In this document: positions 3,827 to 40,278 of the stretch, one piece after another
Position numbering within the stretch: position 1 is the first letter of the stretch
Layout: every line of letters begins with the position of its first letter
NCBI RefSeq assembly: GCF_004216555.1
Contig: NZ_SGWQ01000003.1
Span: 358,146 to 422,145, forward strand
Reading direction: 5' to 3'
Length of the DNA stretch: 64,000 nt
DNA from: Herbihabitans rhizosphaerae
GTDB taxonomy: Bacteria > Actinomycetota > Actinomycetes > Mycobacteriales > Pseudonocardiaceae
Notes under the pieces: model-generated
Seen by the model: the letters and a program-made list of their open reading frames with translations, nothing else
Told to the model about the DNA's origin: nothing
Databases searched by the model: none
Position numbers and translations under genes: made by a program

Positions 3827-3851
3827 GCACCCAGTCGGGTTAACAACGCTG

Positions 3852-3880: not shown

Positions 3881-3913
3881 AAGTTCCGCACCTGCGGAGC
3901 TATCGTTGCGTTC

Positions 3914-15594: not shown

Positions 15595-18500
15595 TCCTGC
15601 TCCTCGTCTTGACGGCCCTCGGCTGAGCCGGATTGGTCACCAGGGTAGGACTCAACAAGTGCGTGCCGGCCACGCCGGACCCCTTGTTGGAAGCTGGACA
15701 TCCGTCCGCGCACCGCGTCGGCGGTACGTGGCGGCAGCTGTGGACGCTCCTCGGTCTGCTGGGCGGTCTCCTGCCTCGGCGCCGCCGAACCGGGCACCAG
15801 GTGAGCTTTGGGCACGCGTTTCGGCAGGCCGGCCGTGGTCTTCTCGACCTCGGGGTCCGGCGTCAGCAACGCCTGGGCGGCCTGCCATCCGTCATCGCCG
15901 GGCGACTGCCACGCCGCCGCGGCCTCGGCCGCGCGCCGCTCCTCGGCGGCCGCGTCCGACTCCGCCGGCGGCTCGGGCTCGTCCCGCCCGGTCGGTGTGA
16001 GATCCGACATCGCCGGGGACAGTGCCTCCTTCGGGTCGGAGGTGTGCTCGAACCACTGGGACAACACCGCTTCGTAGATGGGCAGCCGCTCGGTCGGCGC
16101 ATCCACGTTCAGGTCTACCTCCTGCTGCGCTGCCGACCTGTGCTCCAACTCGCTGCCATTGGTCGCGGCGGAGTCGTGCTGCGGCGCCTGGACGGGCTCG
16201 TGGCCCGCCGGCGCCTCTTCCGCGCCGCCGGTGCGCGGGCCGAACGCGTCGCTGAGGTGCTGGCCCGGCTGCCGCTCGGGAAGCGGCTCGCCGAACAGCG
16301 AGGCGGGCCCGTCGGCCGTCGCGTCGTTGGTGGCCTTCTCCTCGCCCCAGCCACCGGCGACACCGTTGGCGCCGTGGCCGACCACCTGCGTGGGCTCCGC
16401 GTCGGCCGGCGGGTAGCCGACCACCTCGGGTGGCGGGTAGTCCGGCCACCGGTTGGCCGCGTCGTCGACCGGGGTGCCGTCCGCGCCCAGCTTGGGCATG
16501 TTGCCGGTGAACGCGCCGGCGATGCCGCTGGCCCGTGACGGCGGTCCGCCGCTGGTGGGCGGCCCTGGCGGGAATGTCGTGGTGGGCGCGCCGGTCGCCT
16601 GCACCAGCACGGCGGGGACGGTGATCCTGGCGACCAGGCCGCCCTCGATGTCCTCGTTGTCGCGCAGCCGCACCTTGATGTCGTGCCGCTTGGCCAGCCG
16701 CGCGACCACGTACAGGCCCATCCGCCTGGTCACCGACACGTCCAGGTCCGGCGGGTCGGCGAGGCGCGCGTTGGCCCCGGCGATGTCCTCGTCGGACATG
16801 CCCACACCGCGGTCGGTGATCTGGATGGCGAGTTCCCTGGACTTGGTGGCCGCCATCCGGACGGTGACCTTCTTGTCCGGGTCGGAGAACGAGGTCGCGT
16901 TGTCCAGCAGCTCCGCGATCAGGTGCACCAGGTCGTTGACCGCGCGGCCCATGACCGCCACGTCCGGCGCGCTGACCACATCGACGCGGGCGTACTGCTC
17001 GACCTCGGACACCGCGGCGCCGACCACGTCGGCGGCCGGCACCGGCTTGGTCAACTGGCGGGACAGGCCGGAGCCGGAGAGCACCAGCAGCGACTCGGAG
17101 TTGCGGCGCATCCGGGTGGCCAGGTGGTCCAGCTCGAACAGGCTGGCCAGCTGGTCGGGGTCCTGCTCGTCCTGCTCCATGCGGTCGATCAGGTTGAGCT
17201 GGCGCTCGACCAGCGCCTGGCTGCGCCGGGACAGGTTGACGAAGATCGAGTTCACGTTCTCGCGCAGCAGCGCCTGCTCGGCGGCCATGCGCACGGCCTG
17301 TTCGTGCACCACGTCGAAGGACCGCGCGACCTCGCCGGTCTCCTCGCGGGTGAACACCGGCACCGGCTCGATCGCGTTCTTGGACGCCTCCATCGGGTCC
17401 GGGTCGTCCAGGATCCGGCGCACCGTCTCGGGCAGGCGGCGGTTGGCCACGTCCAGCGCGTTGCGGCGCAGGGTGCGCAGCGGGCGCAGCAGCGAGCGGG
17501 TCACGATGATCATCAGGATCAGCGCGACGATCAGCACGCCGGCCACGATGCCGGCGTTGCGCCACGCCGAGAGGGTGGCGTCGCTGGCCAGGCCGTCGGC
17601 GGCTCGGCGCAGCGAGTCCAGCAGGCCGGTCTCCACCTTGCGCAGCCGCTCGACGGTCGCGGTGCCGTCGGTCTTGACCGCCTCGGGGGCCAGCGCCAGC
17701 GGGGAGCCCGGCGTGTTGGGCGCGGCGGCCTCGGCGCGCGCGAACGCGGTGGCCTTCAGGCGCGCGCGGTTGTCCACCTCGACACCGCTCACGGTGTCGG
17801 CGTAGAGCCGCTGCTGCTCCGGGGAGGCACTCGCGGCGAACGCGAGGCGGGTGGCCTCCGCACTCGCCTCGGCCGCACGGGTCTGGGTGAGCAGGTCGCC
17901 GGGGAACACGCCGCGCGTCGCCGCGATCATCAGCATCGCGTTCTCGCGGGAGAAGAACTCCTTCTGCTCGCTGAGCGCCTGCACGAGCGTGCCCTGGCGG
18001 AGCAGTTCCCGGTCGGTGACCGCGGTGTTCACCTCGCGGCCGAGCTGCACCAGCGCGTCGAGGATCTGGGAGTAGGTCGCGTACACCGACACGTCGGGGT
18101 AGGACGAGCCTTCCGCGGTGGCGCGGATCGCGGGCAGCGCGGACAGGCGCTGCAGACCGCGGTTGTACCGCTGCTTGGAGTCCTCGTCGGCGTCCAGGTT
18201 GGCCGCGGCGCCGCGCGCCTCGTCGACGGCCTTGTCCACGCGTGCGGTCTGGTGGTCGATCTCCGTGCGCGGCGCGGCCTTGTTGCCGGCCACCCAGCCG
18301 GACATGAGCGAGCGCTCGGTCTGCAGTTCGTGCACGACGTTGGTCAACTTGCGGGCCAGGTCGACCTGCGCGACCGTTTGCCGGAACCGCTCAGCGCGGT
18401 CGAGGTCGGCCTTGACCTGGAGGCCGCCCAGGACGAGAACGGCGACCGTCGGCACCACGAGAACCGCGATCAGCTTGGTGCGCAGCCGCCAGTTGCGCAT

Positions 18501-18641
18501 ACGCCAGCGCGAGCCGGCGCGAGCCGACATACCCCGGTCGTCGACGACACGCGCGGTGCCGACCTTCTCGGTCGGTATCGCGCCCCGCTCGCCTACCGAG
18601 CTACCTTCGACCCCAGCGTTGTGGTCGGGCACTCCAAGCAC
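15591..18641 (-). CDS. Conservon sensor histidine-kinase-like protein (CvnA-type)
   Basis: A 1016-residue membrane sensor. Two membrane segments (about 54-72 and 375-395) flank an extracellular nitrate/nitrite-sensor (NIT)-like helical domain, with a HAMP-like linker after it. The ATPase domain (about 520-690) has the N-box [24 protein letters not shown] and [13 protein letters not shown]. No typical phospho-acceptor His box is evident, as in other conservon kinases, so it may signal by binding rather than phosphotransfer. About 300 residues of low-complexity Pro/Ala/Glu tail follow. The GTG at 18641 gives an N-terminal cytoplasmic extension; an ATG at 18530 is an alternative. Confidence 0.9.
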
Positions 18642-19134
18642 TCTCCCTGGTTCGAGTCAGCTGCCCGTCGCGCGGAGTCCGGCTCGGCGGGCGGAACACC
18701 ACGACGGTGATTCGCCCGACCTGCCGACACTGTGAGCGGTGTTGACGTCGATGCCGGTTGGGCCGTCGCACGCGACCGAGACCCATCTCCCGGACATCGG
18801 ACACCTCTCTCACCACATCGGCGGCTCGCCTACCCCACCCACATTCCACTGTGGCCACAGAAGGTAGCGAACGATGAGCCGAGCTGTCACCCTACCGGGG
18901 AGGGTTTTCCGGCTGGATGACCGGCAGCCACACGCGTCGTATGCGTAATTGTGAGGCACGCACAGTCCGTCGCGTCGAGGGGGATCTCCGGGGGTTGTGG
19001 CAACTGCCACACCGAAACTGCTCCGTCAGCCGCATTGTCACGCCCGCGCCGTGCTCATAGAGTTCGCCGGAATCGGGGACAGCCAGGCTGACGTGCGCCC
19101 CAGCGCGCGCCGCCGCACTCGCAAGGAGAGGCAA
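18642..19134. other. 493-base divergent intergenic region
   Basis: It separates the conservon (minus) from the first importer locus (plus). It holds a promoter for the importer (19035-19063) and presumably one for the conservon. No gene with convincing start, composition and ribosome binding site was found. A near-copy of the 13-base palindrome (TTCCACTGTGGCC) lies around 18845-18857. Confidence 0.6.
19035..19063 (+). promoter_or_regulatory. Promoter of importer locus 1
   Basis: TTGTCA (19035-19040) and TAGAGT (19058-19063) are 17 bases apart. Locus 5 carries TTGTGA-17-TAGAGT, and the sequence around both -10 boxes is the same (TAGAGTTCGC). That similarity between otherwise unlike upstream regions is the main support. 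Confidence 0.6.
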
Positions 19135-20157
19135 TTGCACCCAACGGACCCGGCGCGCTCGCGCCGGCCGGTTCGCCGAACCAGACCAGCGATCGTCGTG
19201 ATCGCGCTCACACTGGTCGCTGCCCTCACCAGCTGCGGTCTCCTCGGTGACGACACCGACGACGGCAATTCGTCGTCCGGTCAGGTGGAGAAGACCAAGA
19301 TCAAGGCGGCGATGCTGCCCGTGGTCGACGTCGCACCGTTCTACTACGCGATCGAGAAGGGGTACTTCAAGGCCGAGGGGCTCGAGGTCGAGCCGGTCGA
19401 GGCCAAGAGCGGCAAGGAGGCCATCGACAGCCTGATCAACGGCTCGGTCGACGTCGCGTTCGCCTCCTACCCCGCGCCGATGCTGGCGCAGAGCAAGAAC
19501 GCCGCGAAGTTCACCATCGTGGCCGACGGGCTCACCGCGAAGACCGGCCACATCGTGGTCGTCGCCCCGCCGAATTCCCCGATGAAGAAGCCGCAGGACG
19601 CGCCAGGCCGCAAGATCGCCATCACCGCGAAGAACACGTTCAGTGATCTCGCGCCGAAGTCGGTGTTCAAGACGCTGGGCGTGGACTACGGCAAGATCCA
19701 GTGGGTGGAGATGGGCTTCCCGGAGATGATCCCGGCCATGGAGCGCGGCGACGTGGACGGGGCCGTCCTGGTCGAGCCGTGGGTCACCCTCGCGCAGAAG
19801 AGGATCGGCGCGGTGCCCGTGGTCGACGGCGCGACCGGCGCGACCGCCGAGATGCCGATGTCCGGCTACGTGGCGCTGGCCGGCGAGGGCAAGCTCGGCT
19901 CGACCAGCCCCAAGACCATCGCGGCGTTCAACCGCGCCATGGTCAAGGCGCAGACCGAGGCCACCGACCGCACCAAGATGGAGCCGATGTTCGTCAAGTA
20001 CGCCAAGGTCGACCAGCAGACCGCGCCGCTGGTGACGCTGTCGATCTACCCGACCTCGCTGCAGGCGGCGCGGATCCAGCGGGTGGCGAACCTGATGTCC
20101 GAGTTCGGGGTCATCACCGGCACTCTCGACGTCAACCAGATGCTGCCCAAGACGTGA
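19135..20157 (+). CDS. NitT/TauT-type ABC transporter substrate-binding lipoprotein 1
   Basis: A 340-residue extracytoplasmic receptor of the SsuA/TauA/NMT1-like family, anchored through Cys34 of the lipobox ALTSC. The start is a TTG, set by AAGGAGAGG 3 bases ahead, the same leader (GGAGAGGCA) that precedes the ATG of binding protein 2. The mature protein begins QVEKTKIKAAMLPVVD, then FYYAIEKGYFKAEGLEVEPVE; the ligand cleft is lined by segments such as GSVDVAFASYPAP and DVDGAVLVEPWV. It most resembles binding protein 4. The ligand is unknown: the family covers sulfonates, nitrate, pyrimidines and aromatic acids. First gene of a three-gene locus without its own ATPase. Confidence 0.88.
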   Translation: MHPTDPARSRRPVRRTRPAIVVIALTLVAALTSCGLLGDDTDDGNSSSGQVEKTKIKAAMLPVVDVAPFYYAIEKGYFKAEGLEVEPVEAKSGKEAIDSLINGSVDVAFASYPAPMLAQSKNAAKFTIVADGLTAKTGHIVVVAPPNSPMKKPQDAPGRKIAITAKNTFSDLAPKSVFKTLGVDYGKIQWVEMGFPEMIPAMERGDVDGAVLVEPWVTLAQKRIGAVPVVDGATGATAEMPMSGYVALAGEGKLGSTSPKTIAAFNRAMVKAQTEATDRTKMEPMFVKYAKVDQQTAPLVTLSIYPTSLQAARIQRVANLMSEFGVITGTLDVNQMLPKT

Positions 20158-20167
20158 TCTGATCCCT

Positions 20168-20944
20168 GTGCTGGCTCGGTTGCAGAGCCTGATCGGTCTG
20201 GCTGGCTTCTTTCTCGTGTGGGAAGTGGCCAGCCGGACCGATCTGGTTCCCAGTTACTACGTCCCGCCGCCGTCGACCGTGCTTCCGGCACTGGTGCGGA
20301 TGCTCGGCGAGGAGTCCTTCCTGCGCGCGGCCGTTGCCACGGTGCTGGCCACGCTGATCGCGGTTGTCATCGCGGCGGCCATCGCGATCCCGGCCGGCCT
20401 GGTGCTCGGCAGTATGCCCGCGGTGCGCCGCGCCACGATGGTGATCATCGAGTTCCTGCGGCCGATCCCGTCCGCCGCGCTGATCCCGCTGTTCGTGCTG
20501 CTGATCGGCGCCGGCTCGGACACCAAGATCTCGCTGGCCGTGTACGGCGCGGTGTGGCCGATCCTGTTCAACACGATGTACGCGCTGGACGAGGTCGACC
20601 CGCTGCTCACCGACACCGCGCGGGCCTTCGGCATGCGGCGCTCGCGGATCATGTCCACCGTCTCGCTGCCGAGTGCCGCGCCGTTCGCGCTGACCGGGAT
20701 CCGGCTGTCCGCCACGATCGCGCTGGCCGTGGTGATGACCACCGAGTTGTACGGCGGCGGCGCGAAGGGCCTCGGGCAGTACGTGCTGGACGCGCGCAAC
20801 GGGTTCCGGATGGATCTTGTGCTGGCCGCCACGCTGGTCGCCGGCCTGATCGGCTACCTGCTCAACGCCGGCTTCGAGCGGCTGCACCGGCGGATGTTCG
20901 CGTGGCAGGCGACCGGGGCCGAGACGGGAGCGGGGGCACGATGA
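20168..20944 (+). CDS. NitT/TauT-type ABC permease, A-type subunit, locus 1
   Basis: A 258-residue membrane permease with about six helices. The A-type signature seen in all four loci is here EFLRPIPSAALIPLFVLL and YGAVWPILFNTMYALDEVDP. The ATPase-coupling EAA loop is DTARAFGMRRSRIMSTVSLPSAAPFALTG. The GTG start lies 10 bases after the binding-protein stop. It is expected to form a heterodimer with the B-type subunit that overlaps its end. Confidence 0.9.
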   Translation: MLARLQSLIGLAGFFLVWEVASRTDLVPSYYVPPPSTVLPALVRMLGEESFLRAAVATVLATLIAVVIAAAIAIPAGLVLGSMPAVRRATMVIIEFLRPIPSAALIPLFVLLIGAGSDTKISLAVYGAVWPILFNTMYALDEVDPLLTDTARAFGMRRSRIMSTVSLPSAAPFALTGIRLSATIALAVVMTTELYGGGAKGLGQYVLDARNGFRMDLVLAATLVAGLIGYLLNAGFERLHRRMFAWQATGAETGAGAR

Positions 20945-21741
20945 GGGGCATCACCGGGTTCGTGCAGCGGTGGGCGCTGTTCGTGCTGATCGTGCTGATC
21001 TGGGAGGTCGTGACCCGGCTGTCGGCGAGCCCGTTCTTCCCGCCGCCGTCGCAGATCGGCCCCAGGATGGTCGACCTGTGGCTGTCCGGGCCGGCGTCGC
21101 GACTGTTCCTCACCGACACCGTGTACGACCACCTGCTGCCGAGTGTCGGGCGCACGCTGCTCGGCTGGGCGATCGCCGCGGTGATCGGCATCGGGCTCGG
21201 CCTGCTGCTCGGCCGCTCGACTGTGGCGATGCGCTACCTGCGCGTGCTGCTGGACTTCGGCCGGGCGATCCCGCCGCCGCTGATGGTGCCGTTCTTCCTG
21301 GTGACGCTGGGCCTTGGCGCGCCGATGCAGCTCGGCGCGATCGTGTTCGGCGCGGTGTGGCCGGTGCTGCTGAACTCGATCGACGGCGCCCGCTCGGTGG
21401 ACGCCACCAAGGTCGACACGGCGCGCGCGTTCCGCCTGTCCGGCCCGCAGTGGATGGGCGGTGTGGTGCTGCCCGCCGCGCTGCCGAAGATCTTCGCCGG
21501 ACTGCGCCTGTCCATCTCGATCGCGCTGATCCTGATGGTGGTCTCGGAGCTGGTCGCGTCCACGCACGGGCTGGGCAACCAGCTCGTCGCGGCGGGCCGG
21601 GACTACGACATGGCCGGCATGTGGGCCTACATCGTGCTGCTCGGCATCCTCGGGTACGCGTTCAACATCGCCCTGTTGGCGGTTGAACATCGGGTGCTCC
21701 GGTGGCAACCCGGTCGTGCGCACGCCGCAGCGTCACGATGA
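20941..21741 (+). CDS. NitT/TauT-type ABC permease, B-type subunit, locus 1
   Basis: A 266-residue membrane permease. The B-type signature is DFGRAIPPPLMVPFFLV and FGAVWPVLLNSIDGARSVD, with the EAA loop DTARAFRLSGPQWMGGVVLPAALP. Its ATG overlaps the A-type stop (ATGA). It ends the locus: no ATPase follows, so the pair probably uses the ATPase of locus 2. A 230-base gap with GGGTGACACCC-type short palindromes leads to the next locus. Confidence 0.9.
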   Translation: MRGITGFVQRWALFVLIVLIWEVVTRLSASPFFPPPSQIGPRMVDLWLSGPASRLFLTDTVYDHLLPSVGRTLLGWAIAAVIGIGLGLLLGRSTVAMRYLRVLLDFGRAIPPPLMVPFFLVTLGLGAPMQLGAIVFGAVWPVLLNSIDGARSVDATKVDTARAFRLSGPQWMGGVVLPAALPKIFAGLRLSISIALILMVVSELVASTHGLGNQLVAAGRDYDMAGMWAYIVLLGILGYAFNIALLAVEHRVLRWQPGRAHAAASR

Positions 21742-21862
21742 CACTCCGCTACGCCCATCTGACGACACCCCATGTGACCTGCGGTTTCAATTTTGGTGGG
21801 ATCACCCAACGTTAGTTCAAACGGGTGACACCCGATTGTGGTACATCCGATACTCACCGCAT

Positions 21863-21892
21863 TTGTCGTGGTCTACGCCAATCTCATATGGT
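21863..21892 (+). promoter_or_regulatory. Candidate promoter of importer locus 2
   Basis: TTGTCG (21863-21868) and TATGGT (21887-21892) with an 18-base spacer. The spacer end (ACGCCAATCTCA) resembles that of locus 5 (ACGCCAAGATCT... TCTCC). Weaker match than loci 1, 4 and 5. Confidence 0.42.
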
Positions 21893-21971
21893 GTGCCACG
21901 GTGCGGCGGGCCCCCTCTATTCGAGGCTGCCCGAAAGCGCCGTTCTGCCCACCTCACCCACAGGAGAGGCA

Positions 21972-23006
21972 ATGCTGCGACCACGCCCGGGCACCCCACC
22001 GGCGCGACTGCGCCGGCCCGCGGCCCTATTCACCATCCTGGCCATGCTGGTGGCACTCGTCACCGGCTGCGGTCTGCTCGGCGGCGAGGACGACTCCTCG
22101 TCGTCCGGCGGCCAGGTGGAGAAGTCGAAGATCAAGCTCGGTCTGCTGCCGGTGGTCGACGTGGCCTCCGTGCACCTGGCGATCCGGGAGGGCTACTTCA
22201 AGGCCGAGGGCCTCGACGTCGAACTCACCAACATCCAGGGCGCCGGCGCGGCCATCCCCGGCCTGATCGGCGGCTCGCTGGACATGGTGTTCGGCAACTA
22301 CGTGTCCTTCTTCGCCGCGGAGTCGGGCGGAGCGGCCAAGAACGTCGACGGCCTGAAGTTCGTCGCCGACGGCTACATCGCCAAGCCCAACACCTGGATG
22401 GTGCTGCGCGGCCCGAACTCCTCGGTCAACACCGTGCGCGACCTGGCCGGCAAGAAGGTCGCCGTGACCACCCGCAAGAGCCTCGCCGAGGTGAGCATCA
22501 AGTCGGTGCTGCGCGCGAACGACGTGGACGCCAGCAAGGTGGAGTTCATCGAGTCGCCGTACGCCGGTATGGCCGCGCTGATGCAGCAGAACAAGGTCGA
22601 CGCGGCACTGCTCGCCGAGCCGTTCATCACCCAGGCGCAGAAGTCCATCGGCGCCGTGCCGTTGTTCGACGCGGCGTCCGGCCCGACCGCCGACCTGCCG
22701 ATCGCCGGCTACGGCACGACCGGCAAGTTCGCCAAGGACAACCCGAAGACGGTCGCCGCGTTCCAGCGCGCGTTCGCCAAGGGTCAGCTCGCGGCGGGCG
22801 CGGACCGCAACAAGATCGAGAAGCTGCTCCCCGAGTACGCGGGCATCGACCCGCAGACGGCCGCGCTGGTCGCCCTCGGTGGCTTCCCGACCTCGCTGGA
22901 GGCCACCCGGCTGCAGCGGATCCCGGACCTGATGCTCGAGTTCGGTCTGCTGCCGAACCGGTTCGACGCGTCGAGCATGATCCTCAACGCCGGGTCGACG
23001 AAGTAG
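21972..23006 (+). CDS. NitT/TauT-type ABC transporter substrate-binding lipoprotein 2
   Basis: A 344-residue receptor with lipobox LVTGC (Cys33), then an Asp/Ser-rich tether and QVEKSKIKLGLLPVVD. Segments facing the cleft include PGLIGGSLDMVFGNYVSFF and KVDAALLAEPFIT; IAGYGTTGKFAKDNPKTVAAFQ marks the second lobe. It is closest to binding protein 3, sharing the PGL-GG-FGN pattern and the RLQRIPDLM motif. The ATG follows GGAGAGGCA. It is the only one of the five whose locus is complete, with two permeases and an ATPase. Confidence 0.9.
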   Translation: MLRPRPGTPPARLRRPAALFTILAMLVALVTGCGLLGGEDDSSSSGGQVEKSKIKLGLLPVVDVASVHLAIREGYFKAEGLDVELTNIQGAGAAIPGLIGGSLDMVFGNYVSFFAAESGGAAKNVDGLKFVADGYIAKPNTWMVLRGPNSSVNTVRDLAGKKVAVTTRKSLAEVSIKSVLRANDVDASKVEFIESPYAGMAALMQQNKVDAALLAEPFITQAQKSIGAVPLFDAASGPTADLPIAGYGTTGKFAKDNPKTVAAFQRAFAKGQLAAGADRNKIEKLLPEYAGIDPQTAALVALGGFPTSLEATRLQRIPDLMLEFGLLPNRFDASSMILNAGSTK

Positions 23007-23009
23007 CGA

Positions 23010-23777
23010 ATGCGACCGGTCACCCGAGGGCTTGTCGGGCTGGCCGTCTTCCTCCTGATCTGGGAGGTGGTCGGCCGGTCCGGCATCACGGAACGCAGGT
23101 TCCTGCCACCGCCGTCCGACGTGCTGGGCTCGCTCGGCGAGATCCTGGTCGACGGCAAGTTCCAGTCCGACGTCGTCGCCACGGTGCTCGCACTCGTGGT
23201 CTCGGTCGCGATCGCGGTGCTGATCGCCGTGCCGCTGGGTCTACTGCTGGGGAGCTTCCCGGTGGCCCGGCACGCCACCCGAGCGGTGGTCGAATTCCTC
23301 CGGCCGATCCCGTCGGTGGCGTTCATCCCGCTCGCGGTGGTGATGCTCGGCGTCGGCCCGGAAACGAAGATCACGCTCGCGGTGTACGCCGCGGTGTGGC
23401 CGATCCTGTTCAACACGATCTACGCGCTGGACGAGGTGGAGGACCTGCACCTGGAGACGGCGCGGGCGTTCGGGTACTCCCGGGTGCGCACGATCCTGTC
23501 CATCTCGCTGCCCAGCGCCGTCCCGTTCGTGCTGACCGGCGTGCGGCTGGCCTCCTCGATCGGCCTGGTCGTGCTGATCAGTACGGAGATGATCGCGGGC
23601 GGGCGGCTCGGCATCGGCACGTTCATCAACGTCGCCCGCGAGGGTGCCGGCCGGATGGACCTGCTGCTCGCCGCGACCGTGGTGGCCGGGGCGATCGGAT
23701 ACCTGGTGAACGCTGCGTTCGACGTGGCACAGCGGCGCTGGGTGTCCTGGAGTTCGCTGACGAGGAGCGCGTCGTGA
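23010..23777 (+). CDS. NitT/TauT-type ABC permease, A-type subunit, locus 2
   Basis: A 255-residue membrane permease. It begins MRPVTRGLVGLAVFLLIWEVVGRSG, with motifs EFLRPIPSVAFIPLAVVM, YAAVWPILFNTIYALDEVED and the EAA loop ETARAFGYSRVRTILSISLPSAVP. The ATG is 3 bases after the binding-protein stop, so translation is probably coupled. The partner B-type gene overlaps its end. Confidence 0.91.
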   Translation: MRPVTRGLVGLAVFLLIWEVVGRSGITERRFLPPPSDVLGSLGEILVDGKFQSDVVATVLALVVSVAIAVLIAVPLGLLLGSFPVARHATRAVVEFLRPIPSVAFIPLAVVMLGVGPETKITLAVYAAVWPILFNTIYALDEVEDLHLETARAFGYSRVRTILSISLPSAVPFVLTGVRLASSIGLVVLISTEMIAGGRLGIGTFINVAREGAGRMDLLLAATVVAGAIGYLVNAAFDVAQRRWVSWSSLTRSAS

Positions 23778-24565
23778 GCTGGTTCGGAAAGTTCGCGTAC
23801 CGCTGGGTGGTGTTCGTGGGCATCGTGGTGGTCTGGCAGTTGGCCACCGCGGCGGCCGACGACCCGTTCTTCCCGCCGCCGTCGACGATCGCGAACACGA
23901 TCTACCACCTGTGGCTGTCCGGGCCGGGCTCGCAGCTGTTCCTGACCGACACGGTGTACGACGACGTGTTCGCCAGCATCGGGCGGATCCTGCTTGGCTG
24001 GGCCATCGCCGCGGTGATCGGCGTCGCGATCGGCGTGCTGCTGGGCCGGTCGCGCACCGCGATGGACTACGTGAACCCGTTGTTCGCGTTCGCGCGGTCC
24101 GTCCCGTCGCCGGCGCTCGTGCCGGTTTTCCTTGTGCTGCTTGACATCGGGACACCGGCACAGCTCGCCACGATCGTGTTCGGCGTGGTGTGGCCGATCC
24201 TGATGAACACGGTGGACGGCGTGCGCTCGGTCGATCCGATCAAGGAGGAGACCGCCCGGGCGTTCCGGCTGTCCCGCGGGCAGTGGCTGCTCGGGGTGGT
24301 ACTGCCCGCCGCGGCTCCGAAGATCTTCGCGGGGCTGCGGGTGAGCCTGTCGCTGTCACTCGTGCTGATGGTGATCTCCGAGCTGGTGGCCTCGCGCAAC
24401 GGGATCGGCCTGCAGATGTTGATCGCGCAGCGGGCGTTCGACTATCCGGCGATGTGGGCCGGGATCGTGCTGCTCGGTGTGCTCGGCTACCTCTTCAATA
24501 CCGTGCTGCTCATGGTCGAAAACCGGGCACTGTCCTGGCAGCCAGAGCGGCATACTGGGCACTGA
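23774..24565 (+). CDS. NitT/TauT-type ABC permease, B-type subunit, locus 2
   Basis: A 263-residue membrane permease with GTG start in a GTGA overlap. Motifs are AFARSVPSPALVPVFLVLL, FGVVWPILMNTVDGVRSVD and the EAA loop ETARAFRLSRGQWLLGVVLPAAAP. The usual A-I-P-P-P of B-type subunits is S-V-P-S-P here. It is followed after 17 bases by the only ATPase of this type in the window. Confidence 0.91.
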   Translation: MSWFGKFAYRWVVFVGIVVVWQLATAAADDPFFPPPSTIANTIYHLWLSGPGSQLFLTDTVYDDVFASIGRILLGWAIAAVIGVAIGVLLGRSRTAMDYVNPLFAFARSVPSPALVPVFLVLLDIGTPAQLATIVFGVVWPILMNTVDGVRSVDPIKEETARAFRLSRGQWLLGVVLPAAAPKIFAGLRVSLSLSLVLMVISELVASRNGIGLQMLIAQRAFDYPAMWAGIVLLGVLGYLFNTVLLMVENRALSWQPERHTGH

Positions 24566-24582
24566 CGACAGGGAGGGCCTCC

Positions 24583-25449
24583 GTGCCGACCATGCTCGAG
24601 GTTTCTGGCCTCGGCCACACGTACAAGACCAAGGACGGCGTGCACAACGCCATCGGCGACGTGTCGTTCACGGTGAACGCCGGTGAGCTGGTGTGCGTCG
24701 TGGGTCCGTCCGGCTGCGGCAAGTCCACGCTGCTGCGCACGATCAGCGGGCTGATCACGCCCACGGTCGGCGAGGTGTTGCTGCACGGCGATCCCGTGCG
24801 CGGCGTGCCGGCCGACCTGGCCGTGGTGTTCCAGGACTACAGCCGCTCGCTGTTCCCGTGGCTGTCCGTGCAGCGCAACGTCGAATTCCCGTTGCGCACA
24901 AGGGTTTCCGCGCGCGCGGAGCGGCGGGAGCGGGCCCGCGAGGCGCTGGAGTGGGTGGGCCTTTCGGCAGCCGGCGGCAAGTACCCGTGGCAGTTGTCCG
25001 GCGGCATGCAGCAGCGTGTGGCGATCGCGCGGGCGCTGGCCAGCCGGCCGTCGCTGCTGCTGATGGACGAGCCGTTCGCCTCGGTGGACGCGCAGACCCG
25101 GTTCGAGCTGGAGGACCTGCTGCTGCGGGTGCGCGCCGAGCACGACAGCACGGTGCTGCTGGTGACCCACGACATCGACGAGAGCGTGTACCTGGGCGAC
25201 CGGGTGCTGGTGCTGTCCAAGTCGCCCGGCTCGATCACCACCGACCTGGACGTGAACCTGCCCGATGAGCGCGACCAGATCACCACGCGCGCGTCCTCGG
25301 AGTTCGTCGAGCTGCGCAGCGAGGTCGCACGGCTGCTGCACGGCGGAGAGCCCGCGACGCGCCCGAGCCCGTCGGTACCCGACACCGCGGCCAACGACCG
25401 CTTCCTGGCCGCCGAACGCGCGGAAACCCACAGCACCAGCGATACCTGA
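24583..25449 (+). CDS. NitT/TauT-type ABC transporter ATPase, apparently shared by four permease pairs
   Basis: A 288-residue nucleotide-binding subunit of the SsuB/TauB/NrtD type. Walker A is GPSGCGKST, Q-loop VVFQDYSRSLFPWLSV, signature LSGGMQQRVAIARAL, Walker B LLLMDEPFASVD, and switch His in LLVTHDIDE. The C-terminal 60 residues are a variable, hydrophilic tail. GGGAGGG (24571-24577) lies 5 bases before the GTG; an ATG at 24592 is an alternative start. It is the last gene of locus 2. The other three permease pairs carry no ATPase, so it is the obvious candidate motor for all of them; sharing is inferred from gene content. Confidence 0.92.
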   Translation: MPTMLEVSGLGHTYKTKDGVHNAIGDVSFTVNAGELVCVVGPSGCGKSTLLRTISGLITPTVGEVLLHGDPVRGVPADLAVVFQDYSRSLFPWLSVQRNVEFPLRTRVSARAERRERAREALEWVGLSAAGGKYPWQLSGGMQQRVAIARALASRPSLLLMDEPFASVDAQTRFELEDLLLRVRAEHDSTVLLVTHDIDESVYLGDRVLVLSKSPGSITTDLDVNLPDERDQITTRASSEFVELRSEVARLLHGGEPATRPSPSVPDTAANDRFLAAERAETHSTSDT

Positions 25450-25562
25450 GCGAGCACCCGTGAAGGTGACCCCACCGCCACGTGGGCCCGTATGTGCATC
25501 ACCCTCAGGTTTCCCGCGCCATGCTGATCTTGCCTGACCTGGGCTTTCTCCGTGGCCGAGGG

Positions 25563-25580
25563 ACTTTAGCGGGCTAAAGT
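25563..25580. repeat. 18-base intergenic palindrome, copy 1
   Basis: ACTTTAGCGGGCTAAAGT, with 8-base arms around GG, lies between the convergent ATPase and pobA genes. Flanks GGA and ACGCGGA are shared with copy 2. It may act as a two-way terminator or be a dispersed palindromic element. Confidence 0.85.
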
Positions 25581-25620
25581 ACGCGGACGGGTGCCGGCAC
25601 GTTTGTCAAGTCCCGAGCAG

Positions 25621-26805
25621 TCACATCAACCCGACGTAGTTTTCCGCGAACGCCGAGGCGAAGGTCCGCGAATTCATCAGGTGTTCCAGGCGGGCCATCG
25701 CCAGGCGGCCGAGGAACCCGTGTTCCTCGTCGTCCTCCCGGGGCATGTGGATCATGCTGGTCATCCACTGGGAGAACTCCTGGCAGCGCCACACCCGGCG
25801 CAGGCAGATCTCGGAGTAGGCGTCCAGGGCGGTGGTCTCGCCGGTCGTGCGCCAGTGGGTGAGCGCGTTGGCCAGCACCTCGGCGTCGTGCAGCGCGAGG
25901 TTCATGCCCTTCGCGCCGACCGGCGTGATCACGTGGGCGGCGTCGCCGAGCAGGTACAGCCGCCCGTGGCTCATCGGCTCGACGACGAACGAGCGCATGT
26001 CGAGCACCCGCTTCTCGATGATCGCGCCCTCGGTCAGCCGCCAGCTCCCGTCGGCGAGCGCGAGCCGCTCACGCAGTTCCGCCCACACCCGTTCGTCCGG
26101 CCAATTCCGCACGTCGTCGGAAACGGGGCATTGCAGGTAGAACCGGCTCACCGTCTTGCTGCGCAGCATGTGTCCGGCGAATCCGTTCTCGTGCAGCGCG
26201 TAGATGATTGCCCTTGTGGACGGCGGCGCCTCCGCGAGAATGCTGAGCCAGGCTATTCCCGGATTATGGGAGTATTCGCGAAACATACCCGCCGGTATCG
26301 ATTGCCGGGAAACGCCCCGGTAGCCGTCACAGCCCGCGATGAAATCACATTCGAGCCGTTCCTCGCCGTCCGCGCCGGTCCAGCTGATCACCGGGCGCGG
26401 GCCGTCGATCTGGTGCAGCGCAACAGAATCGACGTCGAACCGAATGTCGCCACCACGGTCCAGTAGAGCCGCGACGAGGTCGGTCACCAACTCCTGCTGC
26501 GGGTAGACGTAGTGCGTTCGCCCCTCGTAGAGATCACCGTACGGAACGGTGAAAGCCTTGCCGTATACGCGAAACTCGCAAACCCCGTGCGGTTCGGCCT
26601 CGGCGAGCAGGCGGTCGGCGAGGCCGTTGGCCGCGAGCATGTCGACGGCCCGCTGTTCGAGCACGCCGGCCCGCGCCCGCCCCTCGATGTAGGACCTGCC
26701 GTGCCGCTCGAGTACCACACATTCCACGCCGGTCTTCGCGAGCAGATTCGCCAGCGTGAGACCGGCGGGGCCAGCGCCGATAATTCCAACCGTGGTACGC
26801 CCCAC
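25621..26805 (-). CDS. pobA: 4-hydroxybenzoate 3-monooxygenase
   Basis: A 394-residue FAD monooxygenase, the same length as the characterised Pseudomonas enzyme, converting 4-hydroxybenzoate to protocatechuate with NAD(P)H and O2. The FAD-binding motif GAGPAGL is at 10-16, RARAGVLEQ near 42-50 is the substrate/NADPH region, the active-site strand SKTVSRFYLQCPV carries the Ser and Arg that hold the carboxylate, and LLGDAAHVITPVGAKGMNLAL is the second FAD motif. The GTG start follows AAAGGA. It diverges from orphan binding protein 3 across 153 bases, suggesting linked control and an aromatic-acid ligand for that receptor. No protocatechuate dioxygenase genes are in the window. Confidence 0.93.
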   Translation of the reverse strand: MGRTTVGIIGAGPAGLTLANLLAKTGVECVVLERHGRSYIEGRARAGVLEQRAVDMLAANGLADRLLAEAEPHGVCEFRVYGKAFTVPYGDLYEGRTHYVYPQQELVTDLVAALLDRGGDIRFDVDSVALHQIDGPRPVISWTGADGEERLECDFIAGCDGYRGVSRQSIPAGMFREYSHNPGIAWLSILAEAPPSTRAIIYALHENGFAGHMLRSKTVSRFYLQCPVSDDVRNWPDERVWAELRERLALADGSWRLTEGAIIEKRVLDMRSFVVEPMSHGRLYLLGDAAHVITPVGAKGMNLALHDAEVLANALTHWRTTGETTALDAYSEICLRRVWRCQEFSQWMTSMIHMPREDDEEHGFLGRLAMARLEHLMNSRTFASAFAENYVGLM

Positions 26806-26958
26806 CCCCGAAATCCTTTCACATCGACAGCGTCACTATGCGCACCGTACCGCTACTACTTTTGTATGGACTTACCTTCCGCCTCTATCAGGTAGAGAAC
26901 CGTCATCAGTAGCGTGTCACGGTTCATCCCGAGAAAACGCAACCCAAATGGAGTAATG

Positions 26959-27945
26959 ATGTCCCGATGCCGTGGGTATCTCCACGCGCTCGTCGCTGCC
27001 ACCCTGGTCACCGTTCTGGCCGGCTGCGGGCTACTCGGCGGTTCGGACTCGGGAAATACCGGCGGCTCGATCCAGGTCGAGAAGACCAAGATCAGGGTGG
27101 GCGTGCTGCCGATCATCGACAACGCCCAGCTGTACATCGCCATCAAGAACGGGTACTTCAACGAGGTCGGCCTCGAGGTCGAGCCGGTCCCCATCCAGGG
27201 TGGCGCCGCCGCGGTACCCGGCCTGGTGAACGGCGGCCTCGATTTCAGCTTCGGCAACTGGGTTTCCTTCGTCTCGGCGCAGAGCAAGGGAATCGACCTG
27301 AAACTGGTGGCCGACGGCTACCAGGCGGCGCCGAAGATGTTCATGATCATGACCGGGCCGAATTCCCCGATCATGGGGCCGAGGGATCTGGCCGGGAAGA
27401 CCATCGCGGTCAACACGTTCAACAACATCACCGAATTGACCACCAGGGCCGTGCTGCAGGCCAACGACGTGGATCCGAGAACCGTCAGGTTCATCGAGCT
27501 CCCGTTCCCCGACATGGAGTCGCAGCTCTCCCAGAAGAAGATCGACGCCGCGTTCCTGGTCGAACCGTTCATCACCAGGGCGAGCAAGCAGATCGGCGCG
27601 ATGCCGGTGGTCGACACCGCGTCGGGCCCGACCGCCAGCATCCCGATCGCCGGATACGCGGCGACCGGCAAGTTCGCCGCGGCCAACCCCAAGACGGTCG
27701 CCGCGTTCCAGCGGGCGCTCGCCAAGGGACAGGCGGCGTCCGCCGACCGCACGAGCGTCGAAGAGGTCCTGACCAGCTACGCCAAGATCGACGAGTCCAC
27801 CGCGCGGCTGCTGCGGTTCGGCGAGTTCCCGACCAGCCTCGACCCGACCAGGCTGCAGCGCATCCCCGACCTGATGCGGACCTACGGGCTGCTCAAGAAC
27901 CGCCTGGACGTGCGCGACATGATCATCCCGCCGCCTCCCGTGTGA
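26959..27945 (+). CDS. NitT/TauT-type substrate-binding lipoprotein 3 (no permease genes)
   Basis: A 328-residue receptor with lipobox VLAGC (Cys23) and mature start IQVEKTKIRVGVLPIID. Closest to binding protein 2: VPGLVNGGLDFSFGNWVSFV, KKIDAAFLVEPFIT, AGYAATGKFAAANPKTVAAFQRALAKG. Two ATG codons lie in a row at 26956 and 26959; GGAG at 26950-26953 is better spaced for the second. It stands alone, followed by a broken methyltransferase gene rather than permeases, so permeases were either lost or are borrowed from a neighbour. Divergent pobA hints at 4-hydroxybenzoate or a related aromatic acid as ligand, by context only. Confidence 0.88.
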   Translation: MSRCRGYLHALVAATLVTVLAGCGLLGGSDSGNTGGSIQVEKTKIRVGVLPIIDNAQLYIAIKNGYFNEVGLEVEPVPIQGGAAAVPGLVNGGLDFSFGNWVSFVSAQSKGIDLKLVADGYQAAPKMFMIMTGPNSPIMGPRDLAGKTIAVNTFNNITELTTRAVLQANDVDPRTVRFIELPFPDMESQLSQKKIDAAFLVEPFITRASKQIGAMPVVDTASGPTASIPIAGYAATGKFAAANPKTVAAFQRALAKGQAASADRTSVEEVLTSYAKIDESTARLLRFGEFPTSLDPTRLQRIPDLMRTYGLLKNRLDVRDMIIPPPPV

Positions 27946-27961
27946 CACCTGATCGGACGAT

Positions 27962-28493
27962 ATGCACCGCATCGGCGAGATGCTGGTCAGCCCCCGTTCG
28001 CTGGCCGAGTACCGCGGGATGTTCCGGCTGACCGACGGCGATCTCGCCGGCCGGATCCTGGACTGCCCCGGCGGCGGAGCCGGCTTCACCGCCGAGCAGA
28101 TGTGAGCACAGCGCCAGGTCGAAGGCACGGTCGGGGAAATCCAGGCGCGGCAGGGCAGCGGTGACGCACCGGGCCGGGTGCGCGGCCTTGTCGGCCACGA
28201 ACCGCTCCACCGACTCCGACCTGGTGCGCAGGTAGTTCAGCTACACCGACCGGCTCAGCGTCGAGTTCCACGTCGATAGCCTGGTCGAACTGGCCACGGT
28301 CGCCGCCGAGGTGCGGGTGTTCCCACTCGTGCCGATGGGCTACGACACGAGCCCCATCCTCGGCCCGGTACTCGCGAAGCTCGCCGACGCCGGACTGCTG
28401 GCGAGCCGACACCCGGTCGACTACGAGTTCCAGCGCGGCGGAGACACGATGCTGCGACTGCGAGTCGCACCTGATCGGCCGTTGTGGACGTGA
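27962..28493 (+). pseudogene. Broken SAM-dependent methyltransferase with an internal inversion
   Basis: Three pieces of one methyltransferase are present. 27962-28105 (plus) encodes 47 N-terminal residues, MHRIGEMLVSPRSLAEYRG through LDCPGGGAGFTAE, with the SAM-binding motif I, then a stop. 28097-28235 encodes the middle part on the minus strand (SVERFVADKAAHPARC, DFPDRAFDLALCSHL). 28236-28493 (plus) encodes the C-terminal part, FSYTDRLSVEFHVDSLVELA to its stop. Flipping 28097-28235 joins the middle and C-terminal parts in frame at SHL-FSYTDR. About 60 residues between the N-terminal and middle parts are missing, judged from family members. No long inverted repeats flank the inversion. The downstream importer promoter has taken its -35 box from the end of this relic. 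Confidence 0.82.
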
Positions 28494-28510
28494 TCATGAG
28501 TCCTTAGGGT
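28482..28510 (+). promoter_or_regulatory. Promoter of importer locus 4
   Basis: TTGTGG (28482-28487), a 17-base spacer, and TAGGGT (28505-28510). It matches the layout at loci 1 and 5 (TTGTSA-17-TAGAGT). The upstream box lies within the last codons of the pseudogene. Confidence 0.52.
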
Positions 28511-28568
28511 GTGGTCCGCCGGGAGGGAGATCCCCACGTCTCCGGCTCATACCTGGAGGGGAAATAAC

Positions 28569-29564
28569 GTGATCACGTCCGGGAAGAAACTGCTCGCGGC
28601 CGTCGCCGCCATGGCGTTGACGGTGAGTAGCTGCGGACTGCTCGGTGGCGAATCGGACAGTGGTTCTTCCGGCCCGTTGGGCAAGTCGAAGATCAAGGTC
28701 GGCATCATCCCCGAGCTCGGCGCGGCCGGGTTCTACCTCGCGCTGGACCGGGGGTATTTCAAGGAGCAGGGCCTCGACGTCGATGTCGTCACCGTGAACA
28801 GCGGCAAGGCGGCCGTGGACAGCATCAGCAACGGCAGCACCGACATCGCGGTGGGCTCCTACCCCGCCGTGCTGCTGGCCCAGGCGAACAAGGCGGGCGA
28901 CTACAAGATCGTCGGCGACGGCTTCTCCGCGAAGCCGAACGTGCAGGTGCTGCTCGCCAGCCCGAAGTCGCCGGTCAAGACCGCGCAGGACGTGCCGGGC
29001 CGCAGGCTCGCCACCACGGCCACGAAGACCTTCGCCGACCTGTGCGTGCTGGAGGCGTTGAAGGCCAAGAACGTGCCGACCGACAAGGTCACCTGGCACC
29101 CGATCCCGTTCAGCGACATGGCCGCCGCGATGGATCGCGGTGACGTCGACGCGGTCTCGATCGTGGAGCCGCAGCTCACCCAGGCGCTGCGCACCTACGG
29201 CGGCCACAAGGTCGCCGACTGCGGCGAGGGTCCGCTGGCCGACATGCCGGTCACCGGGTACTTCGCGGTCGGCGGCGAGGGCAAGTTCGCCCAGTCCAAC
29301 CCGAAGACCGTGGCGGCGTTCCAGCGCGGACTGTTCAAGGGGCACGCCGAGGCGGCCGACCGGTCCAAGGTCGAGCCGATCTTCGTGAAGTACCTCAAGC
29401 TGGACGACGTGACCGCCAAACTGGTGACCGTGGCGGGCTGGTCGACCTCGATCGAGAAGACCCGGATCCAGCGGGTGGCCACGATGATGCAGAACTTCGG
29501 CGTGCTCAAGGAACCGCTGGACGTCGGGCCGATGATCTTCCGACCGGAAGTCGACGCGAAATAA
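28569..29564 (+). CDS. NitT/TauT-type ABC transporter substrate-binding lipoprotein 4
   Basis: A 331-residue receptor with lipobox TVSSC (Cys22), tether and GKSKIKVGIIPELG. Similar to binding protein 1 in AAVDSISNGSTDIAVGSYPAVLLAQ and DRGDVDAVSIVEPQLT, but with two mature-domain cysteines (DLCVLEA, VADCGEG) not present there. GGAGGGG precedes the GTG by 7 bases. The permease gene begins at the base after its stop codon. Ligand unknown. Confidence 0.88.
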   Translation: MITSGKKLLAAVAAMALTVSSCGLLGGESDSGSSGPLGKSKIKVGIIPELGAAGFYLALDRGYFKEQGLDVDVVTVNSGKAAVDSISNGSTDIAVGSYPAVLLAQANKAGDYKIVGDGFSAKPNVQVLLASPKSPVKTAQDVPGRRLATTATKTFADLCVLEALKAKNVPTDKVTWHPIPFSDMAAAMDRGDVDAVSIVEPQLTQALRTYGGHKVADCGEGPLADMPVTGYFAVGGEGKFAQSNPKTVAAFQRGLFKGHAEAADRSKVEPIFVKYLKLDDVTAKLVTVAGWSTSIEKTRIQRVATMMQNFGVLKEPLDVGPMIFRPEVDAK

Positions 29565-30329
29565 GTGAAGCGGCTCATTCGTGGGCTGATCGGCCTCGCC
29601 GGGCTGTTCGCGATCTGGGAGTTGGCCAGCCGCGCCGAGTTGGTGCCGTCGCACTACCTGCGGCCGCCGTCGGTGGTGCTGCCGTCCCTGGTCGAGTTGC
29701 TCGGCGAGGAGACCTTCGTGCGGGCGGTGGTCGCCAGTGTGCTCGCGATGGTCGTCGCGGTGGTGGTCGCGGTGGCCATCGCGGTGCCGGCCGGGCTGTT
29801 GCTCGGCTCGCTGCCGGCGATCCGCAAGGCCACCATGGTGATCATCGAGTTCGTCCGGCCGATCCCCGCGGTGGCGCTGCTCCCGCTCGCCCTGTTCACC
29901 TTCGGCGCCGGCCCGGACACCAAGATCGGCCTCGCCGTGTTCGCCGCCACCTGGCCGATCCTGTTCAACACGATGTACGCGCTGGACGAGATCGACCCGG
30001 TGCAGGTTGACACCGCGCGGGTGTTCGGGCTGCGCCGCCGCGCGGTGCTCACCAGGGTCGCACTGCCGAACGTGGCGCCGTTCGTGCTGACCGGGGTGCG
30101 GCTGTCCTCGGCGATCGCGCTGATCGTGGTGGTGTCCACCGAACTGCTGGCCGCCGGTACGAAGGGCATCGGCACGTTCGTGGTGGAGGCGTCCAGCGGC
30201 GGCGCCCGGATGGATCAGGTGCTCGCGGCGACCGTGCTGGTCGGCGCGATCGGCTACCTGATCAACTCCGGGTTGGAGGCGCTGCACCGAGGACTGTTCG
30301 GCTGGAGCACCGTGCGGGAGGCGGCGTGA
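29565..30329 (+). CDS. NitT/TauT-type ABC permease, A-type subunit, locus 4
   Basis: A 254-residue membrane permease; its GTG abuts the TAA of the binding-protein gene. Motifs are EFVRPIPAVALLPLALFTFG, FAATWPILFNTMYALDEIDP and the EAA loop DTARVFGLRRRAVLTRVALPNVAP. It is most like the A-type subunit of locus 1, matching the similarity of their receptors. Confidence 0.9.
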   Translation: MKRLIRGLIGLAGLFAIWELASRAELVPSHYLRPPSVVLPSLVELLGEETFVRAVVASVLAMVVAVVVAVAIAVPAGLLLGSLPAIRKATMVIIEFVRPIPAVALLPLALFTFGAGPDTKIGLAVFAATWPILFNTMYALDEIDPVQVDTARVFGLRRRAVLTRVALPNVAPFVLTGVRLSSAIALIVVVSTELLAAGTKGIGTFVVEASSGGARMDQVLAATVLVGAIGYLINSGLEALHRGLFGWSTVREAA

Positions 30330-31096
30330 CGATCACCCGCAGGCTCGGCGGCCTGGCGCACCGGTGGGCGCTGTTCGCGTTCGTCGTGGTGGCCTGGGAG
30401 CTGGTCACCCGCTCGGTGGACGACCTGCTGTTCCCGCCGCCATCGGAGATCGCGCGCGCCACGGCGGACACCTGGTTCTCCGGCAAGTTCGCCGAGGACG
30501 TGCTGCCCAGCCTCGGGCGAATGCTCGGCGGCTGGGCGATCGCGGCGGTGATCGGCATCGCGCTCGGTGTGGCGCTGGGCCGGTCCAGGGTCGCGATGGA
30601 CTACGCCGGTCCGGCGATGCACTTCTTCCGCGCGATCCCGCCGCCGTTGCTGGTGCCGTTCTTCCTGGTCACCATGGGCCTGGACGGGATGCATACCGGG
30701 ACGATCGTGTTCGGCGCGGTGTGGCCGATCCTGCTGAACTCGGTCGACGGCGCACGCTCGGTGGACGCCGTCAAGATCGACACCGCGCGGACGTTCCGGC
30801 TGTCCCGTGCGCAGTGGATGGTCGGCGTGGTGCTGCCGGCGGCGTCACCGAAGATCTTCGCCGGCCTGCGGGTGAGCCTGTCGATCGCGCTCATTCTGAT
30901 GGTGATCTCCGAGCTGGTCGGCGCGGCCAACGGCATCGGCCGCGAGCTCAAGGACGCGCAGGAGAGCTACCAGAACCCGGCGATGTGGACCTGGATCGTG
31001 CTGCTCGGCCTGCTCGGCTACCTGTTCAACTCGATGCTGCTGATCGCGGAGCGACACTTGCTCGGTTGGCGGTCCGCGCCTTCACGAACCGCCTGA
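30326..31096 (+). CDS. NitT/TauT-type ABC permease, B-type subunit, locus 4
   Basis: A 256-residue membrane permease with GTG start in a GTGA overlap. Motifs are FFRAIPPPLLVPFFLVTMG, FGAVWPILLNSVDGARSVD and the EAA loop DTARTFRLSRAQWMVGVVLPAASP. It ends the locus without an ATPase. An 18-base palindrome follows 18 bases after the stop, before a convergent MFS gene. Confidence 0.9.
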   Translation: MTITRRLGGLAHRWALFAFVVVAWELVTRSVDDLLFPPPSEIARATADTWFSGKFAEDVLPSLGRMLGGWAIAAVIGIALGVALGRSRVAMDYAGPAMHFFRAIPPPLLVPFFLVTMGLDGMHTGTIVFGAVWPILLNSVDGARSVDAVKIDTARTFRLSRAQWMVGVVLPAASPKIFAGLRVSLSIALILMVISELVGAANGIGRELKDAQESYQNPAMWTWIVLLGLLGYLFNSMLLIAERHLLGWRSAPSRTA

Positions 31097-38233: not shown

Positions 38234-38425
38234 CATCCCTCCAATGTCGAGAAACTTCGCGAACGTTCTCCAGCATGCCTGGCCCGTCAGGCAGCGTCAA
38301 TGGCTGAGTGTGAGCAAACGGGTGATATCTGTGGTCACACGTGCTGGCCATGAGGGCGTCACCGAACGTTCACTCGCGCTGACCTGAGTGTTGTTGGTGT
38401 CTCAGAGAAATCGGGATATTGCCCG

Positions 38426-38454
38426 TTGTGACGCCAAGATCTTTCTCCTAGAGT
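38426..38454 (+). promoter_or_regulatory. Promoter of importer locus 5
   Basis: TTGTGA (38426-38431), 17-base spacer, TAGAGT (38449-38454). The -10 region TAGAGTTCGC is identical to that of locus 1, 19 kb away. The 292-base gap also separates the divergent XRE/DUF6879 module. Confidence 0.6.
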
Positions 38455-38528
38455 TCGCGGCGCACAGCCACTGGGGGCGGCGAGCTTGCACGTGCGCCTC
38501 CACAGAACCTCGACCACGAGGAGGGCGC

Positions 38529-39506
38529 ATGTCGCGTCGCGGCACGGCGACGATCATCGGGTTGGTCTTCCCACTGTTAGCCGCTCTCACCGGGTGCAGT
38601 GCGCTCGGCGACAGCGAAAGCTCGGCGTCCGCCGGCGGCAAGGTCGAGAAGTCCTCGATCAAGATCTCGGTCATGCCGACCACCGACGTCGCACCGTTTC
38701 ACCTCGCCATGAAGCGCGGCTACTTCAAGGCCGAGGGCATCGATGACGTCAAGATCTCCAACGCCCCGAGCGGCGGCGCCTCGGTCACCAAGCTGACCAG
38801 CGGCGAGGTGGACATCGCCTACTCCAGCTACACCCCGTTCTACGTCGCGAAGGCCAAGGGCGTGCTGGACCTCAAGTTCGTCGCCGACGCGTCCTCGGCC
38901 GGCCCGAAGAGCACCGTCGTGGTCGCCCTGCCCACCTCGTCCGTGCGCACCCCCGCCGATCTGGCCGGCAAGCGGGTCGCGGTCACCGCGCGGAACACGA
39001 TCTCCGACCTGCTGACCATGGCCACGCTCAAGATCCAGGACGTGCCGTACCAGACGATCAAGTGGGTGGAGATCCCGTTCCCGCAGACCGCGGCGAAACT
39101 CGCCTCCCGCGAGGTGGACGCGGCCTTCCTCACCGAACCGTGGATCACCCACGCGGCCAAGACCACCGGCGCCGTCCCGGTGATCGATGTCGCCACCGGC
39201 CCGACCGCGAACTTCCCCACCGCCGGCTACGCGTCCACCGGCAAGTTCACCTCGGAGAACCCGAAGACGGTCGCCGCCTTCCAGCGCGCGATGAAACGGG
39301 CCACCGACGAGTCGCGCGACCGGTCGGTCGTCGAACCGCTGCTGGTCGAGTTCGCCGGCGTCGACCACGACATCGCCAAGCTCGCCACGCTGCTGGACTT
39401 CCAGTCCGCGATGGACGCCACCCGGATGCAGCGGGTGCCGGACCTGCTGCTCGAGTTCAAGGTCATCGACAAGAAGATCGACGTGGCGCCACTGCTGGTG
39501 AAATGA
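38529..39506 (+). CDS. NitT/TauT-type ABC transporter substrate-binding lipoprotein 5
   Basis: A 325-residue receptor with lipobox ALTGC (Cys23) and mature start KVEKSSIKISVMPTTD. Cleft segments include LTSGEVDIAYSSYTPFYVAKAKG, SREVDAAFLTEPWIT and AGYASTGKFTSENPKTVAAFQRA. It is the most diverged of the five; the ligand-facing YSSYTPF differs from the FGNWVSF or ASYPAP seen in others. GAGGAGGG precedes the ATG. The nearby benzoylformate decarboxylase suggests an aromatic ligand, by context only. Confidence 0.88.
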   Translation: MSRRGTATIIGLVFPLLAALTGCSALGDSESSASAGGKVEKSSIKISVMPTTDVAPFHLAMKRGYFKAEGIDDVKISNAPSGGASVTKLTSGEVDIAYSSYTPFYVAKAKGVLDLKFVADASSAGPKSTVVVALPTSSVRTPADLAGKRVAVTARNTISDLLTMATLKIQDVPYQTIKWVEIPFPQTAAKLASREVDAAFLTEPWITHAAKTTGAVPVIDVATGPTANFPTAGYASTGKFTSENPKTVAAFQRAMKRATDESRDRSVVEPLLVEFAGVDHDIAKLATLLDFQSAMDATRMQRVPDLLLEFKVIDKKIDVAPLLVK

Positions 39507-39513
39507 CCCGACC

Positions 39514-40278
39514 ATGCGCGTGATCAGGAGCCTCGTCGGCCTCGGCGTGTTCTTCGCACTGTGGGAGATCATCGTCAGGGCCGACGTGGTTCGCGCGGTC
39601 TTCCTGCCCCCGCCGTCCACGGTCTTCGCACGGCTGGGCGATCTGCTCGGCTCGGTCGAGTTTCTGCGTGACGTGCAGGCCAGCCTGCTCGCGTGGCTCA
39701 TCGCGCTGCTGATCGCGACCGGTGTGGCCGTGCCGGCCGGCCTGCTTCTCGGCAGCATCCCCGGCCTGCGCTCGGCCACCCGCGTGCTGGTCGAGTTCCT
39801 GCGCCCGATCCCGTCGGTCGCGCTGATCCCGCCCGTGCTGATCATGGTCGGCGCCGGCTCGGCCGCGAAGATCACGCTCGCGGTGTACGCGGCGGTGTGG
39901 CCGATCCTGTTCAACACGATGTACGCGCTCAGCGAGATCGACCCACTACTGCGTGACACCGCCAAGTCGTTCGGCACCAAGGGTTTGCGGCTCGCGACAT
40001 CGGTGTCTCTGCCGCACGCCGCTCCGTTCGTGTTCACCGGCCTGCGCATGTCCGCGGCGATCTCGCTGATCGTGGTGATCAGCACCGAGTACCTCGCCGG
40101 CGCGACGCGCGGAGTGGGCAGGTTCATCCTGGAGGCGACCGAGGGCGCCGGCCGGATGGACCTCGTGCTCGCCGGCACGCTGGTCGTCGGCGCGATCGGC
40201 TACCTGATCAACGAGGGCCTCGAGCGGCTCGGCGGGCGGCTGTTCCGGTGGAGCACGGTGGAACAGGGGGCGGCGTGA
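39514..40278 (+). CDS. NitT/TauT-type ABC permease, A-type subunit, locus 5
   Basis: A 254-residue membrane permease, 7 bases after the binding-protein gene. Motifs are EFLRPIPSVALIPPVLIMVG, YAAVWPILFNTMYALSEIDP and the EAA loop DTAKSFGTKGLRLATSVSLPHAAP, in which Lys-Ser replaces the usual Arg-Ala. It overlaps the B-type gene by 4 bases. Confidence 0.9.
   Translation: MRVIRSLVGLGVFFALWEIIVRADVVRAVFLPPPSTVFARLGDLLGSVEFLRDVQASLLAWLIALLIATGVAVPAGLLLGSIPGLRSATRVLVEFLRPIPSVALIPPVLIMVGAGSAAKITLAVYAAVWPILFNTMYALSEIDPLLRDTAKSFGTKGLRLATSVSLPHAAPFVFTGLRMSAAISLIVVISTEYLAGATRGVGRFILEATEGAGRMDLVLAGTLVVGAIGYLINEGLERLGGRLFRWSTVEQGAA

Follow-up and report, generated by a model that had tools for sequence, protein, structure and literature searches.

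Bacterial pseudogenes usually carry a frameshift, a stop codon, a simple deletion or an insertion element. Intragenic invertons are a different class, in which a short segment within a gene undergoes phase-variable inversion. In microinversions, a segment is replaced at its own site by a copy of its reverse complement. They have been ascribed to template switching or to microhomology-mediated break-induced replication, and the definite cases between human and chimpanzee span 17–33 nt and are flanked by inverted repeats (PMC8755829, PMC8604942, PMC7954356). A literature search for bacterial microinversions yielded little.

Here, we analyse a broken gene in a 64,000-nucleotide stretch of the genome of Herbihabitans rhizosphaerae (the window). 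As in template-switch mutations, a segment of this gene stands in its place as the reverse complement; unlike the human–chimpanzee microinversions, it is 142 nt long, has no significant flanking inverted repeats and adjoins a deletion of 162–165 nt. As in ordinary bacterial pseudogenes, the gene is open but disrupted, has intact homologues elsewhere and appears recently broken, with no further lesions; its lesion, however, is an inversion plus a deletion. The locus also shares the short inverted intragenic segment with invertons, but the segment lacks terminal inverted repeats, adjacent codons are lost and inversion could not lead back to a working gene. All three pieces of the gene align to an actinobacterial Methyltransf_11-like family that is intact in Labedaea, Amycolatopsis, Nocardia and Rhodococcus, whereas in the window residues 51–104 are lacking and the middle lies on the other strand. 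We are confident that what stands here is a class I SAM-dependent methyltransferase gene (Methyltransf_11-like) that was inactivated recently, when its middle was inverted and the adjoining stretch removed, most simply by one compound rearrangement. Its features are as follows.

27962–28096, plus strand: methyltransferase N part of 45 codons, which contains the glycine-rich motif I (DCPGG); read directly.
28094–28235, minus strand: inverted middle segment, 142 nt with the ambiguous GAG at 28094–28096 and 139 nt without it; encodes YLRTRSES...LALCSHLL.
28236–28493, plus strand: C-terminal part, an open stretch of 85 codons and a stop; contains the conserved motif DYEFQRGG; read directly.
27962–28105, plus strand: residual reading frame of 47 aa, ended by TGA at 28103–28105 just within the inverted segment.
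28094–28096, no strand: left junction with 2–3 nt of microhomology; GAG fits either side, as the codon that closes the N part or, reverse-complemented, as the second Leu codon (CTC) of SHLL.
28096–28097, no strand: deletion point, with no spacing left between N part and inversion; homologues carry 162–165 nt (54–55 codons) here.
28235–28236, no strand: right junction, no base lost relative to homologues; a microhomology of at most 1 nt is arguable.

The N part translates to MHRIGEMLVSPRSLAEYRGMFRLTDGDLAGRILDCPGGGAGFTAE and is 73–80% identical to the Labedaea and Amycolatopsis homologues (tblastn). The stretch 28097–28235 is meaningful on the minus strand only, where it reads YLRTRSESVERFVADKAAHPARCVTAALPRLDFPDRAFDLALCSHL, with 60–64% identity to the nearest homologues; the C part translates to FSYTDRL...PLWT followed by the stop codon and reaches 51–58% (both tblastn). 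Homology to the actinobacterial Methyltransf_11-like SAM methyltransferase thus holds along all three parts. The window gene groups with the genes of Labedaea and Amycolatopsis (support 100/98), so that both are proper references; they belong to the same family as the source genome, the Pseudonocardiaceae, and the Labedaea homologue matches PF08241 above the curated cut-off. Compared with the Amycolatopsis homologues, the broken gene is short of about 10 N-terminal residues, which are less conserved (27946–27964), and an in-frame TGA lies upstream of the N part at 27950–27952; the 5' end may therefore be trimmed or the start shifted.

To compare the locus with intact homologues, we searched at the level of both DNA and protein. 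The DNA search (blastn) used window positions 27930–28560 as the query and involved no protein model. In Labedaea rhizosphaerae (G030), query positions 51–167 match on the plus strand, 165–286 on the minus strand (E 3.5e-14) and 307–524 on the plus strand again, and the middle piece runs up to 355901, with the right piece continuing from 355902. A second genome (G305) likewise gives a plus-then-minus pattern. At the protein level, the three translated pieces were searched with tblastn, and 99 loci were matched by all three; some of these are overlapping fetches of one place, and 83 are distinct at the junction. The three pieces lie on one strand and in order in 99/99 loci. Between the N and middle pieces there is a spacer of 54 codons in 51 loci and of 55 codons in 32 (range 50–56 over the 99), while the gap between the middle and C pieces is 0 nt in every locus.

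Among the loci compared, a middle on the minus strand is therefore seen in the window alone. A preliminary description of this DNA, made from the sequence, had proposed a methyltransferase pseudogene with a flipped middle that had suffered both a deletion and an inversion, and the comparison bears out each of these points. It had also named homologues without the middle segment as a reason for doubt; the segment is present and collinear in all 99 loci and so belongs to the normal make-up of the methyltransferase family. The junction of the window has no counterpart among the 299 genomes of the family that were searched (blastn).

The homologues also allowed us to place the edges of the rearrangement. 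The right edge of the inversion is codon-exact. On the left, an edge at 28097, as first described, drops one Leu from the conserved motif SHLLFSY, whereas an edge at 28094 restores the motif exactly, with GAG read as CTC. The inversion of 139 bases that had been proposed is thus real but measures 139–142 nt, best placed at 28094–28235 with GAG at 28094–28096 ambiguous. Similarly, the re-inverted join ALCSHL-FSYTDR is in frame, with a lossless right edge, but is one Leu short, which the ambiguous GAG supplies. The N part terminates in GCCGAG in 31 of the 83 distinct homologues, and the second Leu codon of SHLL is CTG in 57 and CTC in 16 of them. The left overlap is accordingly 3 nt if the ancestral codon was CTC and 2 nt if it was CTG; this is too short to settle whether a template switch occurred, and the closest reference for the middle is only about 60–64% identical. 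The loss on the left had been put at about 60 codons; a deletion did occur there, of 54–55 codons judged by the spacers of the homologues (range 50–56). The lost stretch corresponds to residues 51–104 of the Labedaea protein and includes the invariant G55, D62, P63, Y65 and W96. In a working enzyme the frame would be collinear and motif I would be followed by the DPxY stretch; the window gene has neither.

The deletion and the inversion share an edge, and at the opposite end of the inversion no base is missing. A single accident is the simplest account of this, and we consider a single event probable. Either a replication fork or a double-strand break is the most likely site of this accident. 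At a fork, a nascent strand ending in ...GCCGAG would have jumped to the CTC in the SHLL codons, which is complementary to GAG, about 142 nt would then have been copied backwards, and synthesis would have returned to the original template exactly at the end of the copied piece, so that the intervening 54–55 codons were skipped. At a break, end-joining repair would have flipped the middle fragment while its left-hand neighbour was lost. The genome encodes Ku (PF02735, E 1.7e-54), so that end joining is possible. The microhomology of 2–3 nt, which is weak evidence and could be due to chance, cannot separate the two versions. We therefore put forward only tentatively, as something short of an even bet, that a single reverse template switch copied 142 nt backwards and deleted 162–165 nt with no guiding inverted repeat, which would be a longer span than in the repeat-guided microinversions usually described.

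Alternatively, the inversion and the deletion may have happened at different times. Inversion of a larger block followed by a deletion, or the reverse order, yields the identical final arrangement; the genus is represented by this one genome, with no sister strain to polarise the steps. Dead genes commonly collect later deletions. Such a history demands, however, that both events used one breakpoint, and no other lesion is present in the gene despite the time that a second event would have had. We thus regard two separate events as possible but rather unlikely, and a single event as the better account.

Furthermore, the arrangement could be an artefact of assembly or DNA amplification. Multiple displacement amplification makes inverted sequences with intervening deletions at 2–21 nt of complementarity (PMC1855051), and both the type of rearrangement and its short overlap resemble such chimeras. 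The locus lies on contig C3 of a draft genome of 6.6 Mb in 25 contigs. An amplification chimera would nonetheless require two switches, the second for the return to the original strand. In addition, the genome (98.6% complete, 0.01% contamination) is unlike a typical single-cell amplified genome, and the broken gene lies deep within a contig of 737 kb, with no near-identical second copy in the genome that could have misled the assembly. We consider an artefact very unlikely. The only other family member seen in the genome, a copy on contig C19, is 37% identical; thus, no close backup of the gene is seen.

Apart from the rearrangement, the gene is well preserved. No further stop or frameshift was found in the translated N, middle or C pieces. 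Third-position GC is 0.93 in the N part, 0.89 in the middle (minus-strand frame) and 0.85 in the C part, and in each piece third positions account for the largest share of the differences from every homologue compared. Decay of the broken gene is thus slight. As there is no other lesion and a codon-type composition has been kept, the event looks recent compared with the divergence from Labedaea and Amycolatopsis. The product of the rearranged gene would be non-functional, and turning the middle over again could not restore the enzyme because the lost stretch holds invariant residues. It is highly improbable that the present arrangement instead encodes new functional products, namely the 47-aa frame or a minus-strand frame (27923–28210) across the junction: the latter is open for 95 aa, but over its second half it runs antisense to the methyltransferase's N part, and the junction has no counterpart in the 299 family genomes searched.

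The last alternative is a reversible switch in its off state. An intragenic segment whose inversion halts translation would fit this, but the chance is close to nil, as the segment ends carry no significant inverted repeats and the gene, turned back, would still be 54–55 codons short and without its invariant residues. Between the outer 40-nt flanks, the longest complementary run was 7 nt, a chance level that 16% of random window positions reach, and a further look for inverted repeats gave no pair flanking the segment, so that the inverted repeats expected at both ends of an intragenic inverton are lacking. A working switch for this enzyme is thus excluded on two grounds, the lost codons and the chance-level complementarity of the flanks; the proposals that no long inverted repeats are present and that the locus is a scar rather than a switch both hold.

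A direct repeat was considered as well. An exact 11-bp copy of CACCTGATCGG brackets the broken gene at 27946–27956, just ahead of the first codon, and at 28468–28478, within the last codons; in a wider register, 22/29 bases are alike. Among 2000 random position pairs, 17 gave a run of at least 11. In the genome the 11-mer has 32 occurrences, and the repeat is absent from all homologue and transporter loci that were fetched. We rejected it as an explanation, since it was chosen post hoc, has these 32 genome copies and is found at none of the homologue or transporter loci. With at most one mismatch, the 11-mer occurs 12 times in the window compared to 2.3 expected from shuffles.

Lastly, we looked at the neighbouring genes. 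The broken gene starts 16 nt after the gene of an NMT1/THI5-like substrate-binding protein and is followed by another binding-protein gene with two permeases. In three Amycolatopsis genomes, the nearest intact relatives also lie beside an NMT1-type binding protein and permeases, but are divergent from them; this binding protein is about 45% identical to the protein encoded at 26914–27945 in the window. At these loci (L027, L028 and L029, about 2300–5680), the intact methyltransferase is divergent from the NMT1-type ABC transporter. The adjacency in Amycolatopsis suggests that this methyltransferase and NMT1-type transporters are functionally linked. In the window itself, an array at 18997–31096 and 38388–41075 comprises five genes for NMT1/SsuA-like binding proteins and one ATPase. 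Four of the binding-protein genes are each accompanied by two permease genes; the one at 26914–27945 lacks permeases of its own. The divergent PobA-like neighbour of the latter (25621–26805) is conserved in relatives. In the transporter relatives (58–63% identical) that have the same divergent PobA-like neighbour, no methyltransferase was found downstream, and the gene thus seems to be an addition here, which has no bearing on the inversion. In those relatives, the pair of PobA-like and binding-protein genes is followed by what reads as a sensor-kinase-like gene, resembling the window's own minus-strand gene at 15591–18641.

Taken as a whole, the methyltransferase gene is a clear but ordinary, well-preserved dead gene that carries the scar of a small inversion-deletion, and it reveals no new system. 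It does show cleanly how an inversion-deletion can kill a bacterial gene. Such rearrangements escape gene callers, as the pieces resemble fragments and the middle, where it is annotated at all, is assigned to the wrong strand. Tools that seek template-switch mutations in bacterial genomes could be tried out on this locus.
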